Shown piece by piece: positions 3,311-12,110 of a stretch of 64,000 bases of DNA. Source of the stretch: an uncultured Gemmiger sp. (GTDB taxonomy: Bacteria > Bacillota > Clostridia > Oscillospirales > Ruminococcaceae); NCBI GenBank assembly GCA_944386495.1, contig CALXBE010000006.1:49332-113331 (forward strand). Reading direction: 5' to 3'. A program made the position numbers and the translations under genes. The notes under the pieces are model-generated. The model saw nothing but the letters and a program-made list of their open reading frames with translations, searched no databases and was not told the origin of the DNA. The stretch's first letter is position 1. The number at the start of each line of letters is the position of its first letter.

Positions 3311-4156
3311 ATGGACGAAAAATGGACTACTGAAATCAAGCCCAAAACCGGATGGTTTGACATCGACCTGCAGGAACTGTGGCAGTACCGTGACCTGGTA
3401 GTTATGTTTGTAAAACGGAACTTTACCGTCCTTTACAAGCAGACCATCCTGGGGCCTGCCTGGATTCTGCTGAACCCCTTGATCACCACCGTCATCTTCA
3501 ACATTGTGTTCGGCGGCATCGCAGGAATCAGCACCGACGGCGTTCCCGGCTTCCTTTTCTATATGGCCGGCAACACCATGTGGACCTTCTTTTCCAGCTG
3601 TATCAACAACACCGCCAACACCTTTGTGACCAATGCCGGGGTGTTCGGAAAGGTATACTTTCCCCGTCTTACCATGCCGGTGAGCCAGGTGTTGACCAGC
3701 CTTATCAACTTCCTCATTCAGTTTGCCATGTATGTCTGTTTCTGGCTGTATTACGCAGTCCAGGGAGAGGTACATCTCACCGCCTGGATGTGGTATCTGC
3801 CCATTGCAGTGGTTCAGACCATGCTGCTGGGCCTGGGGGTGGGCATCATTGTTTCCAGCCTGACCACCAAATACCGGGACCTGGCCATTGCGGTCGGGTT
3901 CGGGGTACAGCTCTGGATGTACGCCACCCCCGTGGTCTATCCCCTGTCCAGCCTTTGGAATCAGCCCAAGCTGTCCTTCCTTGTGAGCATCAATCCCATG
4001 ACTGCTCCCGTGGAAGCATTCCGGCTGGCCACTCTGGGCACCGGCAGCGTTTCCCTGGGCGGAATCCTGTACAGCCTGATTGCCACCGCAGTTCTGCTGA
4101 TCATTGGCGTGGTTCTGTTCAGCCGGATTGAAAAGACTTTTATGGACACGGTGTAA
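3311..4156 (+). CDS. Polysaccharide ABC exporter, permease subunit (Wzm/TagG-like)
   Basis: Membrane subunit of an ABC-2-type exporter that moves a completed lipid-linked glycan across the cytoplasmic membrane. The 281-aa protein has a short charged N-terminus, then about six hydrophobic segments (for example around residues 50-75, 85-105 and 130-150), as in TagG, Wzm and RfbA. The NPLITTVIFNIVFG stretch in the first membrane region is typical. It is followed 14 bases later by its ATPase partner, the usual arrangement. ABC export implies that the polymer is built on its lipid carrier inside the cell before transport. Confidence 0.92.
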   Translation: MDEKWTTEIKPKTGWFDIDLQELWQYRDLVVMFVKRNFTVLYKQTILGPAWILLNPLITTVIFNIVFGGIAGISTDGVPGFLFYMAGNTMWTFFSSCINNTANTFVTNAGVFGKVYFPRLTMPVSQVLTSLINFLIQFAMYVCFWLYYAVQGEVHLTAWMWYLPIAVVQTMLLGLGVGIIVSSLTTKYRDLAIAVGFGVQLWMYATPVVYPLSSLWNQPKLSFLVSINPMTAPVEAFRLATLGTGSVSLGGILYSLIATAVLLIIGVVLFSRIEKTFMDTV

Positions 4157-4170
4157 GGAGGATGAATTCT

Positions 4171-5460
4171 ATGGATAATATGAACATCCCCCAGCGGGAA
4201 CCGGTGATCCAGGTCAAGGGTCTCAAGAAGCAGTACAAGCTGGGGCAGATCGGGGGCGGCACCCTTACCGCCGACCTGCAGAGCTGGTGGGCCCGGGTCC
4301 GGGGAAAAGAAGACCCTAACACCATCATCGGCACCGACAGCCGGCTTTTCGGCCAGACTTTTATGGCCCTCAACGGCCTGGACCTGACCGTATACAAGGG
4401 GGAGGCCCTGGGAATCATTGGCCGGAACGGCGCCGGCAAAAGTACCTTTCTCAAGATCCTTTCCCGAATCACCGCCCCCACCGAGGGTTCCATCAAAATC
4501 AAAGGCCGGGTCGCCAGCATGCTGGAAGTGGGCACCGGCTTCAACCAGGAAATGACCGGCCGGGAAAACATTTACATGAACGGCGCCATCCTGGGCATGA
4601 CCAAAGCAGAGGTAGACGCCAAGCTGGACCAAATCATTGAGTTCAGTGAGTGCGGCGACTTCATTGACACCCCCGTCAAGCGGTATTCCAGCGGTATGTT
4701 CGTCAAGCTGGCCTTCGCCGTCGCAGCCCATCTGGACAGCGAAATCATGGTCATGGATGAAGTCTTGGCTGTGGGCGATATGAAGTTCCAGCAGAAATGT
4801 CTGGGCAAAATGAGCGATGTGGCCGGTCAGGAAGGCCGGACCGTCCTCTATGTAAGCCATAACATGAGCACCATCCGCCAGCTCTGCACCCGGTGCGTGG
4901 TACTGGACCAGGGCCGCATCATCTTTGACGGTGATGTGGAGCAGGCTATTGCCATCTACATGGACACCACCGATGTGAACCTGGTCCATTATGACCTGGA
5001 ACATGTGAACCGGATGAATGTGGGCGGCGGCAAGCGGCTGCGGCTCCAGAGCCTGGACTTCCTGGGCAAGGAGAGCAGCGTATTCTCTGACACTGAGCTG
5101 ATCAAAATTCAGATCAAGTGGGCGGTCAGTGAGCCTTTCAGCGGAATCAACCTGAAAATGAATCTGCATTTCCGGGACGGCAGCCCGGTGGGTATCACCC
5201 ATCCTGTGGACATTGGCGCTGCCCAGCCCGGAAAGACTTATACCACCACCTTTACCTTTGACCCCAGCCTCCTGGGAGAGGGTCAGTATTACTTCTATCT
5301 GGACATTTTTGACGGAGACCTGGTTCGGGCAGTCTGTCTGGACAAGCCTGTGACCGAGTTCCGGTTTGAGGTGACCAGCGGCAATCTGTCCATGCCTGAG
5401 TGGTCTGCAGGCTGGGGCCGGATCCACTTCCCCGGAGTGAAGCTTTTGGAGGAAGAGTAA
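4171..5460 (+). CDS. Polysaccharide ABC exporter, ATPase with C-terminal Wzt-like domain
   Basis: ATPase powering the exporter encoded just upstream. Walker A GRNGAGKST starts near residue 84, the signature YSSGM near 172 and Walker B MVMDE near 193. After the ATPase, residues about 280-429 form a beta-rich extension like the Wzt C-terminal domain, which in characterised systems recognises the finished polymer or its terminal residue. The ATG at 4171 is preferred over that at 4162 because AAGGAGG (4155-4161) abuts the earlier ATG but sits nine bases from this one. The polymer terminus read by this domain may be the unusual sugar acid made by the following genes; that is inference. Confidence 0.9.
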   Translation: MDNMNIPQREPVIQVKGLKKQYKLGQIGGGTLTADLQSWWARVRGKEDPNTIIGTDSRLFGQTFMALNGLDLTVYKGEALGIIGRNGAGKSTFLKILSRITAPTEGSIKIKGRVASMLEVGTGFNQEMTGRENIYMNGAILGMTKAEVDAKLDQIIEFSECGDFIDTPVKRYSSGMFVKLAFAVAAHLDSEIMVMDEVLAVGDMKFQQKCLGKMSDVAGQEGRTVLYVSHNMSTIRQLCTRCVVLDQGRIIFDGDVEQAIAIYMDTTDVNLVHYDLEHVNRMNVGGGKRLRLQSLDFLGKESSVFSDTELIKIQIKWAVSEPFSGINLKMNLHFRDGSPVGITHPVDIGAAQPGKTYTTTFTFDPSLLGEGQYYFYLDIFDGDLVRAVCLDKPVTEFRFEVTSGNLSMPEWSAGWGRIHFPGVKLLEEE

Positions 5461-6407
5461 TGGATCTCTATGTATGTCACACCAGCTACCAGCTGATGAT
5501 TGCCCTGGTCCGGGCCTGGCGGCAGGGCGGCGGCCAGAGCATCCTTCTCAGCAAGAAGGTCCCCGGGGGGCTGCCTCTCTGGCAGCGGATTCAGGAGAGC
5601 GGCGCCTTTGATGAGGTTGCCGTGGTGGACGAGGACAAGTGGCCCGGCATTGCCCGGGGGCTTTTTGCCCGGTGGAAAAACAAGCGGGGCTTTGAGAAGA
5701 ACTGCGGTTGGTATCTCAAGCCCGGCAAATACCGGGACATCTACATCTGCAATGACTGGAGCGTTATTGGCCGGTATCTTCAGGACTGCCGGTATCCCTA
5801 CATCCTCTGTGAGGACACCATCGGCAGCACCCTTCACGATGACCAGAGCCTGGTATGGGACCAGCGGAAGAATCCGCCCAAGGATTACCAGTATTGGGGA
5901 GATTACCCCCTCTGCAAGATGGTGGAGAGTGAGGATGCCGACCGGTGCAGCCTCTTTCCCCGGGAAAAGATGGTCACTTTCAGTAAGCGGGAGCTGCTGG
6001 CCAGCCTGACCGCCGCTGAGAAGGAGATGCTCCAGAAGGTGTTCATCACCCAGCCTCTCCCCTCTTCCCAGGAAGCCCCCTGTCTTCTGCTTCCCCGCAG
6101 CTTTGTGCTGGACGGTCTCATGGACCAGGAGACCCAGGACCGGCTGTTCCGGGTTGTGGCGGAAAAATACTGCACTGAGCCTCTTTTCATTAAAACTCAT
6201 CCCCGGGACGAGACCGATTATCAGGCTCTCTTCCCCCGGGCTGTGGTGCTGGACCGGACCATGCCCAGCGAAATTCTGAATTTCTGTCTTCCCTTCCGGT
6301 TTTCCAGGGCGGTCACTGTACAGTCCTGGGCTTTGGAGGGCTTTACCGCCGCCGATGAAAACATCCGGATCACCCTGGAAGACGCTATGAAGCTTATCTC
6401 TCGCTAA
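5460..6407 (+). CDS. GT52/polysialyltransferase-like glycosyltransferase (CMP-sugar donor likely)
   Basis: Predicted GT-B transferase of the sialyltransferase type. The start YVCHTSYQ (residues 4-11) and the later KTHPRD (245-250), followed by a segment ending in TVQSWALEGF, match the layout of GT52 lipooligosaccharide sialyltransferases and polysialyltransferases, where the HP motif binds the CMP moiety. The ATG at 5460 overlaps the previous stop (TAATG). The next gene makes a CMP-sugar, which supports a CMP-activated donor. Overall similarity is distant, so the family call is moderate and the sugar is unknown. 315 aa. Confidence 0.6.
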   Translation: MDLYVCHTSYQLMIALVRAWRQGGGQSILLSKKVPGGLPLWQRIQESGAFDEVAVVDEDKWPGIARGLFARWKNKRGFEKNCGWYLKPGKYRDIYICNDWSVIGRYLQDCRYPYILCEDTIGSTLHDDQSLVWDQRKNPPKDYQYWGDYPLCKMVESEDADRCSLFPREKMVTFSKRELLASLTAAEKEMLQKVFITQPLPSSQEAPCLLLPRSFVLDGLMDQETQDRLFRVVAEKYCTEPLFIKTHPRDETDYQALFPRAVVLDRTMPSEILNFCLPFRFSRAVTVQSWALEGFTAADENIRITLEDAMKLISR

Positions 6408-6426
6408 CCAAGAAAGGAAACGCTGT

Positions 6427-7155
6427 ATGAAAATCATTGGTGTCATTCCCGCCCGGTATCAGAGCAGCCGTATGCCCGGCAAGCCCCTGGCGGATATTCT
6501 GGGCAAACCTATGATCTGGTGGGTCTATCAGGAAGCCGTCAAGGCAAAAGGACTGGATCAGGTGGTTATTGCCACCGACGACGACCGGATCGCTGAAAAG
6601 TGCCGGGAACTGGGGATGGATTACCTGATGACCAGCGCCAGTCACGATACCCCCACCAGCCGGATCTACGAGGTCAGCACCAAGCTGGATGCAGACCTGT
6701 ATCTCCAGATCATGGGGGATGAACCCCTCATCAATGTGGCCGCCTTCGACCTGATTCTGCCCGAGACCCTTCCGGAGGACCCTTACTATGTAGCCGGAAT
6801 CACCAATGTTATGGAGAATCCCGCAGATGTCATTGATTTCAGCAACCAGAAGGTGGCCTGCAACCAGAAGCGGGAGATTCTTCTGATTTCCCGCAGTCCT
6901 ATCCCCTACCCCAAAGGCAGCCTGGACATTCAGTATGAAAAAATCACCGGGATCCAGCTTTTCTCCAAGCAGGCCCTGGCTTTTTATAACGCAACCCCCA
7001 AGAGTATCCTGGAAAAGGCAGAGGAGAATGACCTGATGCGGTTTGTTGAAAACGGCCACAAGGTCCATGCCATCTGCAGTCCCTACAAGACTGTGAGTGT
7101 GGATACTCCCAAAGACCTGACACTGGTTCAGGAGATTTTAAAACAGAGGAACTAA
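6427..7155 (+). CDS. KdsB-like CMP-ulosonic acid (CMP-Kdo-type) cytidylyltransferase
   Basis: Transfers CMP from CTP to the anomeric hydroxyl of a 2-keto-3-deoxy sugar acid, producing the activated donor. The N-terminal PARYQSSRMPGKPL (8-21) is the CTP-binding signature of KdsB. MGDEPLI (96-102) and VDTPKDL (225-231) match the metal- and substrate-site motifs, and 242 aa fits KdsB. True KdsB serves Gram-negative lipopolysaccharide, so the presence in this organism points to a Kdo-like acid in another glycan. AAGGAAA precedes the ATG. Neighbours on both sides fit the same pathway. Substrate stereochemistry cannot be read. Confidence 0.85.
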   Translation: MKIIGVIPARYQSSRMPGKPLADILGKPMIWWVYQEAVKAKGLDQVVIATDDDRIAEKCRELGMDYLMTSASHDTPTSRIYEVSTKLDADLYLQIMGDEPLINVAAFDLILPETLPEDPYYVAGITNVMENPADVIDFSNQKVACNQKREILLISRSPIPYPKGSLDIQYEKITGIQLFSKQALAFYNATPKSILEKAEENDLMRFVENGHKVHAICSPYKTVSVDTPKDLTLVQEILKQRN

Positions 7156-7159
7156 AACT

Positions 7160-8710
7160 ATGGGAAAAATCAATCTTCTCGACTGCACCTTGCGGGACGG
7201 CGGCTATGTAAATGACTGGAAGTTCGGCCGCCGCTCCACCCATCAGATCATCCGGAGCCTGGTACGGGCCGGAGTGGACATTATAGAGGTAGGCTTCCTC
7301 AACAAGACCGTCACCCCTCAGCCCGGAGTCACCCGCTGGCAGACCATGGACCAGCTGAAAGAAGTGCTGCCCCAGCGGTCCAAGCGGGGCAGTGCCATCT
7401 TCAGCGCCATGTGCATCCACAACTTCTATGATGTGGACCTTCTCCCCCAGCGGGACGAGACCACCGTGGATATGCTCCGGGTTACTTTCCATGATTACGA
7501 TGCTCCCCAGGGACTGGAATTCTGCCGCCGGGCCAAGGAGAAGGGTTATCTTCTCAGCTGCAACCCCATCAACATTATGGGGTATACCGACGAGCAGGTC
7601 CTTTGGCTTACCAAAGAGATTGCCAAAATCCATCCCTATGCTATGAGCATTGTGGACACCCATGGCAGCATGAACCACCGGGACCTGCAGCGTCTGGTAG
7701 GGCTGGTGGACAACAACCTGCCCCGGGACATCTGTCTGGGACTTCATCTCCACGAGAACATGGCCCAGAGCTTCAGTCTGGCCCAGCGGTTTGTGGACTA
7801 TCATCTCAACCGGGATATTACTGTGGACGGCAGCCTGGAAGGAATGGGCCGGATTCCCGGCAACCTTCCCATTGAGCTGATGGCCCATTATCTCAACGAG
7901 AACATGAACACCCACTATGACCTGGACCCCATGCTGGATGCCATTGAGGACTGCATCAACCCCATCAAGGGAAGTCCTCTCTGGGGATATACCCCCATCT
8001 ACTTCCTCAGTGCCAAGTACAACCTTCACCGCACCTATGCGGAACACTTGAGTCAGAAGGGCACCCTCACCCATCGGGACATCAATCACATTCTCAGCCA
8101 GATCGCTCCCGAGAAGAAGACCGCCTTCGATGCGGAGTACGCAGACCAGCTCTACTACCAGTACCAGCACCGGCAGGTGGATGACTCTGCTGCCCGTGCC
8201 AAGCTGCGCCAGGAACTGGAAGGAAAAACCGTTCTGGTGGTAGCTCCAGGTTCCAGCCTGACCCGGTGCGCCGACCAGGTGGAAAACGCTCTGAAGGAAG
8301 CGGATGTGGCCATCAGCGCCAACTTTGTTCCTGACTTTGCAGTGGATTATTCTTTCTTTACCAGCAGCAAGCGGTATGACCGGCTGGGCGGTCCCCTCTG
8401 CCCTGTCATTGCTACCAGCAACCTGACCGGTGCCCAGTTTACCATTGACTATGACAGTGTCTGCGGTACCTTCCCCGGAGGAGCCAACAGTGTAATTATG
8501 CTGTTGAACCTGCTCAAGGACATGGATGTGAAAGAGGTTCTGCTGGCCGGTGCCGACGGTTACTCCACCGGTGCTGCCGACTACTTTGACAACAGCTACC
8601 ACGCACACACCCGGCGGGATGATCAGTTCAACCGGGATATGGCCCAGGCCATTGCCGCCTGTGGGCTGAATCTTCGCTTTGTAACCCCCAGCGCCTACCA
8701 GAAAGGATAA
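7160..8710 (+). CDS. DRE-TIM (HMGL-like) aldolase fused to a C-terminal Rossmann-like domain
   Basis: The N-terminal ~300 residues form a DRE-TIM metallolyase barrel, the fold of 4-hydroxy-2-oxovalerate aldolase and HMG-CoA lyase. DCTLRDGG at 8-15 supplies the catalytic Arg and a metal Asp, and HLHEN at 196-200 supplies the two metal His. Such enzymes make or break bonds to a pyruvate-type enolate. From about residue 350 a second domain begins with VLVVAPGSSL (358-367), reminiscent of DUF115/MptE-like nucleotide-binding proteins. It lies between cytidylyltransferase and phosphatase genes, so I infer that it builds the 2-keto-3-deoxy acid in place of a KdsA-type synthase. That role is not established. 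516 aa. Confidence 0.8.
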   Translation: MGKINLLDCTLRDGGYVNDWKFGRRSTHQIIRSLVRAGVDIIEVGFLNKTVTPQPGVTRWQTMDQLKEVLPQRSKRGSAIFSAMCIHNFYDVDLLPQRDETTVDMLRVTFHDYDAPQGLEFCRRAKEKGYLLSCNPINIMGYTDEQVLWLTKEIAKIHPYAMSIVDTHGSMNHRDLQRLVGLVDNNLPRDICLGLHLHENMAQSFSLAQRFVDYHLNRDITVDGSLEGMGRIPGNLPIELMAHYLNENMNTHYDLDPMLDAIEDCINPIKGSPLWGYTPIYFLSAKYNLHRTYAEHLSQKGTLTHRDINHILSQIAPEKKTAFDAEYADQLYYQYQHRQVDDSAARAKLRQELEGKTVLVVAPGSSLTRCADQVENALKEADVAISANFVPDFAVDYSFFTSSKRYDRLGGPLCPVIATSNLTGAQFTIDYDSVCGTFPGGANSVIMLLNLLKDMDVKEVLLAGADGYSTGAADYFDNSYHAHTRRDDQFNRDMAQAIAACGLNLRFVTPSAYQKG

Positions 8711-8713
8711 GGT

Positions 8714-9247
8714 ATGGAGATCAAGCTCATGGTCCTGGATGTGGATGGGACTCTCACCGATGGTGGGATCTACTATGACGACCAGGAAAATGAAACCAAA
8801 AAGTTCAGTGTAAAGGACGGGGCCGGAATCGTTCTGGGCCGGGCTGCCGGACTGCAGTTCATGATCTGCACCGGACGGGAATGCCCTGCTGTGGCCCGGC
8901 GTGCCCGGGACCTGAAAATTGATTATGTCTACCAGAATGTATCCCGGAAGTGGGAGTTTCTGGAGGATTTTATGATTCTCCATGGTCTGGAAAAATCCCA
9001 GGTAGCCTACTGCGGGGATGACTGGAACGACCTGGCTGCCATGGCCCTCTGCGGCTGGGTAGCCTGCCCTGCGGATGCTGCCTCTCAGGTCAAGGCTATG
9101 GCAGATTATGTCTGCCCCCATGTGGGAGGACAGGGGGCTGTCCGGGATGCCATCGTTCAGCTTCTCACCCGGGACGGCGTTCTGGACCAGGCTTTGGAAA
9201 AGGCCTTCGGAGTCAAAAAGGAGGGTTCTCCATGTACCAGGAACTGA
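8714..9247 (+). CDS. KdsC-like HAD phosphatase
   Basis: HAD-superfamily phosphatase of the KdsC/YrbI type, which removes phosphate from Kdo-8-phosphate or related ulosonate phosphates. DVDGTLTDGG (9-18) contains nucleophile D9 and acid/base D11. VKDGAGI, CTGR and the late GDDWNDL complete the motif set, and the C-terminal GGQGAVRDAI matches the KdsC tail that closes the neighbouring active site in the tetramer. 177 aa with no cap domain, as in KdsC. The gene overlaps the next one by 16 bases. It supports a phosphorylated intermediate in the pathway. Confidence 0.87.
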   Translation: MEIKLMVLDVDGTLTDGGIYYDDQENETKKFSVKDGAGIVLGRAAGLQFMICTGRECPAVARRARDLKIDYVYQNVSRKWEFLEDFMILHGLEKSQVAYCGDDWNDLAAMALCGWVACPADAASQVKAMADYVCPHVGGQGAVRDAIVQLLTRDGVLDQALEKAFGVKKEGSPCTRN

Positions 9248-9921
9248 AAGAGGCTGCCTATCTGGCCAACATGACCATTGCACGCAGCGGCCTTATCCCG
9301 GTGGATTCCACCTGGGGAAATGCCAGCCAGTGTGACCGGCAGGCCGGAGTTATGGCCATCAAACCTTCCGGGGTAGATTATTCTCTCCTTACCGTGAAAG
9401 ATATGGTGGTGGTAGACCTTGCCACCGGACAGGTGGTTGAAGGGCGGCTCCGTCCCTCCAGCGACACTCCCACCCATCTGGAACTTTACCGGGCTTTCCC
9501 TGAAATCGGAGGCGTAGCCCACACCCACAGCCGCTGGGCCACCATCTTCGCCCAGAGCCGCCGGGACATTCCTCCCTACGGCACCACCCATGCAGATACC
9601 TTTTACGGCGCTGTCCCCTGTGTTCCCGCTTTGAGCCAGGAGCAGGTGGAAGGCGACTACGAAGGAAACACCGGCCGGGTGATGGCTGCCCATTGTCAGA
9701 ATACCTATAACCAGGTTCCCGCCGCCCTGGCAGCAGGTCATGGTCCCTTCACCTGGGGTGCCAATGCCGCCAAAGCGGTGGAAAATGCCATTACTCTGGA
9801 GGAATGTGCTGCCATGGCCTACCATTCCATCCAGCTGGGTGCTCCCCTTCTGGAACAGTATGTGCTGGATAAGCACTATTCCCGGAAACACGGACCCAAG
9901 GCCTACTACGGCCAGAAATAA
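9232..9921 (+). CDS. L-ribulose-5-phosphate 4-epimerase-like class II aldolase (AraD/UlaF family)
   Basis: Close to AraD/UlaF, zinc enzymes that interconvert L-ribulose 5-phosphate and D-xylulose 5-phosphate by a retro-aldol/aldol route. STWGNAS (26-32), KPSGV (44-48) and SSDTPTH (76-82) bind substrate. H97 and H99 of HTHS and H170 of HGPF are the expected zinc ligands, and HAD at 120-122 holds the catalytic Asp. The end KHGPKAYYGQ keeps the conserved Tyr. At 229 aa it is full length. No arabinose catabolism genes are nearby. It may instead supply an unusual pentose phosphate for the sugar acid, which is inference. It overlaps the phosphatase gene. Confidence 0.85.
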   Translation: MYQELKEAAYLANMTIARSGLIPVDSTWGNASQCDRQAGVMAIKPSGVDYSLLTVKDMVVVDLATGQVVEGRLRPSSDTPTHLELYRAFPEIGGVAHTHSRWATIFAQSRRDIPPYGTTHADTFYGAVPCVPALSQEQVEGDYEGNTGRVMAAHCQNTYNQVPAALAAGHGPFTWGANAAKAVENAITLEECAAMAYHSIQLGAPLLEQYVLDKHYSRKHGPKAYYGQK

Positions 9922-9938: not shown

Positions 9939-12110
9939 ATGAAAGATTCTTCTTGGAAGAAAAAGCTCTGGTCTCTGCGGCACTTCTTTGTAGCGGGAGG
10001 CATCGTCTTTTTCTGTATGGTGATTGCCCTGCTGGTCTATCTGCTGAAGGTGCAGGGGCAGGGTTCCAAAAGTCTGCGGATTGCCTGGAATGACAACTTT
10101 GAGCTGGTCACCGCGCCCGTTCAGGAGGAGCTGGTTCAGGAGTTTGACTATGACCTGAATCTGTACAGCCTGATGGTCAAGTTCCAGTTTGACACCCAGC
10201 CTCAGGGTTCCCTGGAGCTGGTGATGGAGGATGCTGCCACCGGCGAGACCCTGGCCACCGGCATGGTGGATATGAGCCTGTTTATCTCAGGGCAGTATAC
10301 CACCATCGGGTTTACCTCTTCCCTGCCCCAGGCGGAAGGCCGGCGCTGTCGGCTTATCCTTCGCCCCCATTACGAGGGAGAGGGCCAGATCAGCCTTATG
10401 TACTCTGCAACCACCCCGGAGGGGTCCACCCTCTCGGTGGATGGCCAGGATCTGGACGGGGCTTTGGCCATGCAGATCAACTACCATCAAATCGGCAGTT
10501 TCCTGACCCGGTTTTACTGGGGGGTATGCCTCTGTCTCAGCCTTATGGCCGGAGGGGTGTATCTCTACTGCCGCAGCCGTTTCTTCAAACTGCATATTTT
10601 TGTTCTGGCAGCTGTTCTCCTTCTGGGGGTGGTGTACAGTACTGTACTGCCTCCCTACTCCGCGCCGGATGAACAGTTCCACATCAACCAGAGCTTTACC
10701 ATTGCTTCCACCTGGGCCAACCGGTTTGCCCCTGATGGGACCTGGAAGATGAATTATGTTCCCCTTAATGAGACCCGGCGCCGTCCCTCCGACCAGAACG
10801 GTCTTATTCAGGTGGAGGAGACTACGGTTTTCCAGTGGAGCACCATTGCGGAGCATCTCACTGACCGTACCCAGGACAATTACTATGACCAGCAGCTCTA
10901 CTTTGAATATCAGGTAGACAACACCAACACTCTTTACTATCTTACCGGGGGTGTGGTGTTCCTCTGCTATCTTCTCAAACTGGGCTTTGTTCCTGCTCTC
11001 CTGCTGGGACGGCTGGCCAATCTGATTCTTTTTGCCCTCTGTGCCAGTTGGGCGGTAAAGCGGATACCCGTAGGGAAAAATATCCTTACCGTAGTAGCCC
11101 TTCTCCCCATGACCTTACATCTGGCAGCTTCCTTCAGCCGGGACAGCGTTATTATGAGCCTTTCCCTGGTCTATCTGGCCATGGTTCTGGCCGGGTGTCT
11201 GGATGAAAATTTCCGGTTCCGGTGGTATCACTGGGTCGCTGCGGCTCTGATTGCCTACGCCTTGATCCCTGCCAAATATGTTTATATTCCCCTGGTTCTT
11301 ACCATCCTGGTCCTTCCCGTCAAAAAGCTGGGAAAGCGGCCCCGGCTGGCCCGGGTGGGACTGGCGGTTTATATGCTGGCGGTACTGCTGGGGCGGAGTG
11401 TGATTGCCCCCGCTTTGGAGAATTATCTCTATCTGCTCAGCACCCCTTACGACACCTACGAGGAAGCCATGGAAGCGGATGAGTTCTACAATCAGCATCC
11501 TGAATTGCTGGAAACAGCCCCCGGACAGACCCCTCTGGAGGAAGAATTGGCGCTCCAGGAAAGTACCGAATCTTCGGATTCTTCTGCTGAGGCAACCGGC
11601 GAGGAAACTGTCAATCCCGACTCCATCTGTTATAGCTTCTCCTATATTCTCTCCCATCCGGTGGACACCTTCCTGTTGGGAGTGAACTCCATCATTGAAC
11701 TGGGCGACCACTATGTCCGGACCGTGGTGGGCGGGTCTCTCAGCTACTACAATCTGGATCTGGCCTGGACCTGGGTGTTGCTGCTCTACGCGCTTCTCTT
11801 CTTTGCGGCTCTTCCCGTTTCCGGAGAGGCAAGTCTGCCCCTCACCCTTCGGCTGGTGCTGGGCGGGGCCGTTCTCCTCTGCGCCGGGTTTGCCGTGGGA
11901 GGATGTGTCCTTTGGACTCCCACCTATTACACCACCATTTACGGCTTCCAGGGCCGGTATCTGCTGCCTGCCCTTCCTGCCGCACTTTTGGCGCTCTCCC
12001 CTGTCCGTCTGAAATATGCCGGTGATCTGCGGTCCGGCCTGGCCTGTGCCGCTGTCTGGATCAACGCCGGGGTATTGCTCAACGCCATGCTGGTCATTAT
12101 CGCCCGTTAA
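9939..12110 (+). CDS. DUF2142 multispanning membrane protein (GT-C-like)
   Basis: Large integral membrane protein of 723 aa. An N-terminal membrane anchor (about residues 17-38) is followed by an extracytoplasmic beta-rich domain, a second membrane segment near 195-215, and then a run of roughly nine hydrophobic segments. PDEQFHI after the third segment and GRLANLILF are typical of DUF2142, whose topology resembles GT-C glycosyltransferases that use polyprenyl-phosphate sugars outside the membrane. A Glu/Ser-rich loop around residues 510-560 interrupts the membrane region. The GT2/DUF2304 pair downstream could make its lipid-linked donor. No activity has been shown for this type as far as I know. 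Confidence 0.8.
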   Translation: MKDSSWKKKLWSLRHFFVAGGIVFFCMVIALLVYLLKVQGQGSKSLRIAWNDNFELVTAPVQEELVQEFDYDLNLYSLMVKFQFDTQPQGSLELVMEDAATGETLATGMVDMSLFISGQYTTIGFTSSLPQAEGRRCRLILRPHYEGEGQISLMYSATTPEGSTLSVDGQDLDGALAMQINYHQIGSFLTRFYWGVCLCLSLMAGGVYLYCRSRFFKLHIFVLAAVLLLGVVYSTVLPPYSAPDEQFHINQSFTIASTWANRFAPDGTWKMNYVPLNETRRRPSDQNGLIQVEETTVFQWSTIAEHLTDRTQDNYYDQQLYFEYQVDNTNTLYYLTGGVVFLCYLLKLGFVPALLLGRLANLILFALCASWAVKRIPVGKNILTVVALLPMTLHLAASFSRDSVIMSLSLVYLAMVLAGCLDENFRFRWYHWVAAALIAYALIPAKYVYIPLVLTILVLPVKKLGKRPRLARVGLAVYMLAVLLGRSVIAPALENYLYLLSTPYDTYEEAMEADEFYNQHPELLETAPGQTPLEEELALQESTESSDSSAEATGEETVNPDSICYSFSYILSHPVDTFLLGVNSIIELGDHYVRTVVGGSLSYYNLDLAWTWVLLLYALLFFAALPVSGEASLPLTLRLVLGGAVLLCAGFAVGGCVLWTPTYYTTIYGFQGRYLLPALPAALLALSPVRLKYAGDLRSGLACAAVWINAGVLLNAMLVIIAR

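Follow-up and report, generated by a model that had tools for sequence, protein, structure and literature searches.

Gene content of the locus

The 64,000-nt stretch of DNA analyzed here (the window) lies on contig C6 of the genome of an uncultured Gemmiger sp. (1.89 Mb, 81% complete; the source genome) and contains a run of five genes at positions 5460-9921. An ORF check showed that all five reading frames are intact and lie on one strand, with gaps of 19, 4, and 3 bp followed by a 16-bp overlap (9232 vs. 9247); an ABC exporter (3311-5460) precedes the run and a DUF2142 gene (from 9939) follows it (Table 1). A first-pass annotation, made from the sequence alone, had named the products as a sialyltransferase-like transferase, a KdsB-like cytidine monophosphate (CMP)-transferase, an aldolase, a KdsC-like phosphatase and an AraD-like epimerase, and Pfam and NCBIfam searches agreed with these families. 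It had also proposed that the aldolase takes the place of the phosphoenolpyruvate (PEP)-dependent synthase (KdsA or NeuB) of known CMP-ulosonic acid pathways. The aldolase ORF (7160-8710) was found to encode two domains, the second of which had gone unnoticed in that annotation.

Table 1. Positions of the five-gene run, the two domains of the aldolase, and the flanking genes in the window.
Feature	Position	Strand	Supporting match
ABC-2 type permease, Wzm-like, glycan exporter	3311..4156	+	Pfam ABC2_membrane, 65.2 bits
ABC ATPase, TagH/Wzt-type	4162..5460	+	Pfam ABC_tran, 76.6 bits
GT52-family (lipooligosaccharide-sialyltransferase-type) glycosyltransferase, proposed CMP-ulosonate transferase	5460..6407	+	Glyco_transf_52
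KdsB-family CMP-ulosonate synthetase (cytidylyltransferase)	6427..7155	+	CTP_transf_3, 139.8 bits
Aldolase barrel (~residues 1-330), HOA/DmpG-type DRE-TIM, proposed pyruvate aldolase	7160..8149	+	
C-terminal domain of the same protein, sialyltransferase/MAF/MptE/SteA fold	8177..8710	+	
KdsC/KDN-9-phosphatase-family HAD phosphatase	8714..9247	+	TIGR01670
AraD-family L-ribulose-5-phosphate 4-epimerase, optional pathway part	9232..9921	+	Match to 1jdi
DUF2142 membrane protein	9939..12110	+	Pfam DUF2142, 110.2 bits

The KdsB-family enzyme scored 212.6 against the KdsB subfamily model NF003952 (cut-off 193) and 116.8 against the equivalog TIGR00466, under its cut-off of 155.2. It aligned end to end with the solved CMP-Kdo synthetase 1gq9 (153 bits, residues 2-240), and the GDEP and VDTP stretches were retained in this alignment. 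The phosphatase matched the HAD family Hydrolase_3 in Pfam (44.6 bits) and the KdsC/YrbI model TIGR01670 (128.5, over the cut-off of 106.95), fell short of the KdsC equivalog NF007019 (PRK09484), and had 3e81 (101 bits) and the KdsC structure 4um5 (95 bits) as its nearest solved relatives. The glycosyltransferase, 315 aa long from its ATG, was a marginal match to Glyco_transf_52 (29.0 bits vs. a cut-off of 26.1), and an NCBIfam search gave no match to it. The AraD-family protein matched Pfam Aldolase_II (157 bits) and the subfamily NF006047 (314.8, over 257), lay under the cut-off of the equivalog TIGR00760 (292 vs. 389), and aligned end to end with E. coli AraD (1jdi, 248 bits), from which it differs in its glycan operon setting. 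Since this gene is the sole PF00596 match of the source genome and no match to AraA was found there, at 81% completeness, a role in arabinose catabolism is unlikely.

The aldolase barrel

The barrel matched HMGL-like in Pfam with 66.5 bits and scored 75.8 against the NCBIfam 4-hydroxy-2-oxovalerate aldolase subfamily, far below the cut-off of 229. Its top structural matches were pyruvate aldolases of the HOA type and 3dxi. With DmpG, AmnG, HsaF and the Bacteroides protein BVU_2661 (3dxi) it shares the TIM barrel and the metal-site D and HxH, which were unchanged in all 81 rows of the aldolase alignment. Unlike the HOA aldolases, it carries a C-terminal domain and is encoded in a glycan operon, with no aldehyde dehydrogenase among the ten Pfam-typed genes of the window. 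We propose from these matches that it is an HOA-type pyruvate aldolase, which would make a 2-keto-3-deoxy acid.

Conserved pairing with CMP-transferases

A scan of a genome collection returned at least 575 relatives of the aldolase, and the best 80 of these were examined. The set includes this locus itself (L056, an uncultured Clostridia bacterium, with an identical aldolase) as well as near-copies; two nearly identical loci, L065 and L066, are filed under Pseudogracilibacillus and Mediterraneibacter, and mis-binning is possible for L065, a short contig. In 50 of the 80 loci, the aldolase gene had a KdsB- or NeuA-type CMP-transferase gene within 100 bp on its own strand; 12 others had one at another place in the locus. 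In a tree of the window's aldolase and those of the other 79 loci, the closest relative of the window copy was from Gemmiger, and every member of its well-supported clade (35/35 rows) had a CMP-transferase in the locus. The KdsB/NeuA type switched often on this tree (15 and 14 changes) while the pairing persisted.

An order survey, an even draw of 295 genomes, had matches in 39 (source genome included), and 29 loci (L007-L035) were fetched from the other 38. Sixteen of these had both domains (L007-L022), and their aldolase gene adjoined a CMP-transferase gene in 15 cases and a thiamine-diphosphate gene in one; two second copies (L046, L048) each had an adjacent CMP-transferase. Among the 13 short or weak matches (L023-L035), one had an adjacent CMP-transferase and two a thiamine-diphosphate gene. 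When 398 genomes were drawn evenly from the phylum, 11 had a match at E ≤ 1e-60. Only three matches spanned both domains, among them those of the source genome and of a locus with KdsB and PfkB genes beside it (L140), and the two-domain form is therefore rare in the phylum at large. Another match (L143) covered residues 1-329 and had a thiamine-diphosphate gene beside it, and seven barrel-only matches had no typed neighbor within ~1.5 kb. No relative was found on viral contigs in a single scan with the window protein alone as query. On plasmids, 74 records matched, none over more than 80% of the query, and the surroundings of three were inspected; in a polysaccharide locus of a Leisingera caerulea plasmid (L138, 8001-11003), an aldolase, a KdsB-type enzyme and a HAD hydrolase are annotated consecutively.

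Within 5 kb of the aldolase gene in 60 CMP-type loci, we found a CMP-transferase in 53; phosphatase-type genes were of the KdsC type (26 loci) or of a second HAD type (11), and GT52-type (14), MptE-like (10) and polysialyltransferase-like (7) genes were also present. Judged by gene neighborhoods, the conserved core is the CMP-transferase and the aldolase, often with the phosphatase. The five-gene order was rejected as the conserved unit: AraD lay on the aldolase's strand in only three of the 80 loci, this one and two of the other 79 (Akkermansia L068 and Clostridia L075, the latter ending at its contig end), where it was likewise accompanied by aldolase, KdsB and KdsC. A PfkB kinase gene followed the aldolase in some loci of both CMP and thiamine-diphosphate contexts; the kinase that was typed fell short of both model cut-offs, with 225 bits against 440 for 2-keto-3-deoxygluconate kinase and 504 against 700 for a KDPG aldolase/kinase fusion.

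Individual loci showed other arrangements. An Acetatifactor locus (L064, 11575-13632) has the aldolase followed by NeuA-type and KdsB-type CMP-transferases, plus a KdsC-type gene. Genes for UDP-GlcNAc 2-epimerases (NeuC-like) lie 2-5 kb from the aldolase in L080, L087 and L092, where a possible aldol route from ManNAc to a sialic acid would merit attention. Proteins of ~700 aa with a HAD-like segment are encoded near the aldolase in 9 of the 60 CMP-type loci (e.g., L042, 11257-13362).

PEP-dependent synthases in source and related genomes

In line with the first-pass annotation, the searches turned up no KdsA/NeuB-type gene in the window, and the PF00793 and PF03102 matches of the source genome are on contigs C3, C8 and C23, all off C6. 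By their lengths, 338 and 340 aa, the two PF00793 matches resemble DAHP synthases, and one stands beside shikimate-type genes, as judged by eye. KdsA was not recognized in the source genome, which is 81% complete; the KdsA model TIGR01362, run on the near-identical genome G295 and not on the source genome (G000), reached 118.6 at best (cut-off 314). The best KdsD/KpsF match in the source genome, at the same completeness, was 25.8 bits with TIGR00393 (cut-off 203.7).

Whole-genome searches were made in 43 genomes chosen from 62 pair-bearing loci (38 with the two genes adjacent, 5 not adjacent). KdsA exceeded its cut-off in seven, with loci of Akkermansia, Fusobacterium, Bacteroidales and Cyanobacteria/Gastranaerophilales, and NeuB exceeded 100 bits in 19, including the near-identical copy of the source genome; one genome had both. 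Neither KdsA nor NeuB above 100 bits was found in 18 of the 43, and in 16 of these 18 the CMP-transferase was adjacent to the aldolase. Six of the 18 (L061, L062, L072, L090, L099, L110) had no match at all to either synthase family. NeuB matches below 100 bits were discounted because their positions coincide with DAHP-synthase-like matches. KdsD was over its cut-off in six of 44 genomes, every one of them with KdsA. Paenibacillus sp. 32352 and Proteocatella sphenisci are among those in which the pair is present and neither synthase was found. At the level of single loci, L081 has a DAHP-synthase-like gene 7.3 kb from the aldolase.

A candidate route to CMP-activated ulosonic acids

We think it reasonably probable, from gene content and conservation, that the product of the operon is a CMP-activated 3-deoxy-2-ulosonic acid, made with no PEP-dependent synthase and placed on an ABC-exported envelope glycan. 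The HOA-type aldolase would join pyruvate, as its enolate, to an aldose phosphate, the KdsC-family phosphatase would take off the terminal phosphate, the KdsB-family enzyme would activate the free acid with cytidine triphosphate (CTP), and the GT52-type transferase would transfer it to the glycan; each reaction and its direction, as well as the aldehyde and the sugar, are what we infer from the enzyme families. AraD may here supply or adjust a C5 phosphate, leading to a C8 (Kdo-like) acid. Its occurrence with aldolase, KdsB and KdsC in L068 and L075 makes such an acceptor and product plausible for this locus, if speculative.

Like the CMP-Kdo pathway (KdsD-KdsA-KdsC-KdsB), the proposed route would employ KdsB- and KdsC-family enzymes and yield a CMP-activated 3-deoxy-2-ulosonic acid, but it would do so with a pyruvate aldolase in the synthase's place and in a member of the Bacillota whose genome, as far as it is complete, has neither a recognized KdsA nor a KdsD over cut-off. 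It resembles the NeuB/NeuA pathways to sialic and legionaminic acids in that some relatives have a NeuA/PseF-like transferase beside the aldolase and sialyltransferase-type glycosyltransferases nearby, whereas NeuB, searched with the source-genome NeuB as seed, was not recognized in the 80 aldolase loci surveyed. With corrections, the first-pass idea of an aldolase-based route is well supported by comparative evidence beyond the reach of that annotation (the conserved pair, the 18 genomes without a recognized synthase) and by the pyruvate-aldolase folds, though unproven; the NeuB elsewhere in the source genome counts on the other side. It would be a new variant of CMP-ulosonate biosynthesis, possibly with a new enzyme architecture as well. 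In the titles and abstract openings searched, mostly outside subscription journals, no description of an aldolase replacing KdsA or NeuB was found, and passages of PMC12409901 and PMC12887879 had no bearing on such a replacement.

Several observations weigh against this pathway. The residue beside the DRE motif, in the column that we take to be the catalytic His position of the HOA aldolases DmpG and BphI, was Tyr in 71 of the 81 rows, as in the window's enzyme, His in 6 and Phe in 4. A thiamine-diphosphate enzyme without a CMP-transferase was present in 14 of the 80 loci, a context that the first-pass annotation had missed, and neither was present in four; the third two-domain locus of the phylum draw (L142) had no typed neighbor. 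No gene for making the acceptor aldehyde recurred near the aldolase loci, and because the product of AraD is a ketose phosphate and the aldolase needs an aldehyde, an isomerization step is missing. At Pfam's own cut-off, the NeuB family was matched in 36 of 44 genomes. Absences in the source genome are weakened by its 81% completeness, and contig C23 holds one strong NeuB (328 bits), a synthase that could be the source of the acid when this genome is considered by itself.

Three other explanations were considered. The aldolase could be a Claisen or aldol catalyst for a non-sugar or branched-sugar block, with the CMP-transferase activating a non-ulosonate, comparable to CMP-activated phosphonates. 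We regard this as improbable, as the best folds and profile matches are pyruvate aldolases and isopropylmalate synthase profiles matched weakly, most of them over no more than the first 50-60 residues; moreover, the partners in the window's clade are of the KdsB and KdsC types, which act on ulosonic acids in known systems.

It is less probable still that the NeuB on C23 feeds the window's KdsB while the aldolase acts otherwise, for example by a cleavage that lowers the pool. The NeuB itself, and those above 100 bits in 19 of the 43 pair-bearing genomes, would fit this explanation, but the C23 locus (L036, 2644-12462) comes with NeuC- and NeuA-type genes of its own along with SDR-, aminotransferase- and CBS-nucleotidyltransferase-type genes (all except NeuB named by eye from translations), and in the 18 genomes described above, six of them without any match, neither KdsA nor a NeuB above 100 bits was recognized. 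We take this gene set to be that of a legionaminic-type pathway; the locus reads as an independent, complete-looking route to a nonulosonic acid of that type, and the source genome may hold two CMP-ulosonate systems. Of the genes that the first-pass annotation had singled out for a genome-wide search, kdsA and kdsD were not found in this 81% complete genome, and neuB was, in a seemingly self-contained locus. Just as doubtful is salvage or catabolism, in which the cell would scavenge a ulosonic acid, the aldolase cleaving it to a sugar plus pyruvate and KdsB re-using some of it: HOA aldolases are mainly familiar from catabolism, and a Priestia plasmid has a short relative ~3-6 kb from ring-cleavage genes on the opposite strand, but the partners of the two-domain form are CMP-transferases, in glycan loci that also encode transferases and sometimes exporters, and salvage of a free acid needs no KdsC-type phosphatase.

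Genome recognition of CMP-ulosonic acid pathways relies on the PEP-dependent synthase (KdsA, NeuB). If the aldolase-based route exists, it would be another way, with a new enzyme, of building acidic, sialic-acid-like sugars, and many gut and other bacteria with a CMP-transferase and no synthase may make such surface sugars and be missed by searches. The pair recurs in many distant bacteria and may be an overlooked route to these sugars; operon-bearing named strains, including Gemmiger formicilis ATCC 27749, would be places to seek a new sugar.

The C-terminal domain of the aldolase

The most unexpected result is the fusion of an aldolase to a sialyltransferase-superfamily domain, with a CMP-transferase gene adjoining. 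Residues ~340-516 form this second domain, which was modelled alone with a pLDDT of 90.8. VIA-align scored it highest with HPPK/MptE (11.1) and the MAF glycosyltransferase (11.0), followed by CstII (10.3), SteA (10.2 and 9.8), Cst-I (10.1), mammalian sialyltransferases (7.2-9.9) and thiamin pyrophosphokinases (8.3-8.8), beyond which scores dropped to 4.6. Foldseek by itself gave E 1.2e-3 at best, and a profile search against solved chains gave weak matches (E 0.04-0.7) to HPPK, a GT42 enzyme, SteA and two unrelated chains. Among 50 members of the domain, Pfam found MptE-like in three and CST-I in one, with no match in the window's own copy, and NCBIfam assigned 21 to SteA, with E 1.8e-5 at best under a limit of 0.05.

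The domain thus shares its fold with MAF, CstII/Cst-I (GT42), GT29, MptE/HPPK and SteA, and differs from them in being fused to an aldolase. No His column was conserved among the 50 members (highest 8/50), whereas GT42 sialyltransferases employ a His as base, and a working sialyltransferase is not supported, though conceivable. Since SteA and thiamin pyrophosphokinases were also matched, the fold by itself is no proof of CMP binding. With no His column retained, binding without transfer is our guess: the domain probably holds a cytidine-nucleotide sugar and would act in feedback sensing or docking.

Relatives in a thiamine-diphosphate context

The 14 thiamine-diphosphate loci mostly contain CDP-glucose and CDP-dideoxyhexose-type genes, with RfbF-like genes in 10 and any of RfbF/G/H in 12; for comparison, the 50 CMP-adjacent loci have RfbF in two, RfbG in three and RfbH in two. 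These relatives possibly belong to a route to branched sugars. Cytidine nucleotide sugars are common to both contexts, and a 2-keto-3-deoxy acid made by the aldolase would fit either, being CMP-activated in one or decarboxylated onto a CDP-ketosugar in the other. A tentative extension, which we hold possible though rather unlikely, is that the aldolase-sialyltransferase-fold fusion is an undescribed family of general 2-keto-3-deoxy-acid makers for cytidine-nucleotide sugars. Its product would mostly be CMP-activated as a new ulosonic acid and elsewhere serve thiamine-diphosphate-dependent branching of CDP-sugars, with the second domain holding the nucleotide sugar for end-product sensing or substrate presentation.

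The thiamine-diphosphate genes beside aldolase relatives are acetolactate-synthase-like in, for example, L101 and L133, and mostly occur with RfbH- or CDP-dideoxyhexose-type genes. On a Desulfobaculum plasmid (L137, 5846-10014), the gene beside the aldolase relative is transketolase-like.

Flanking genes

The C-terminal domain of the ABC ATPase matched Wzt_C with 24.7, under the cut-off of 30.4, and TagH-type NCBIfam matches were also under their cut-offs. The DUF2142 protein likely has a role in envelope glycan assembly. In five Gemmiger-type loci, an orthologue of the GT52-type gene (58-60% identity) was present and a DUF2142 homologue came after the phosphatase; GT52 and DUF2142 in the window's order are chiefly a Gemmiger-type trait.

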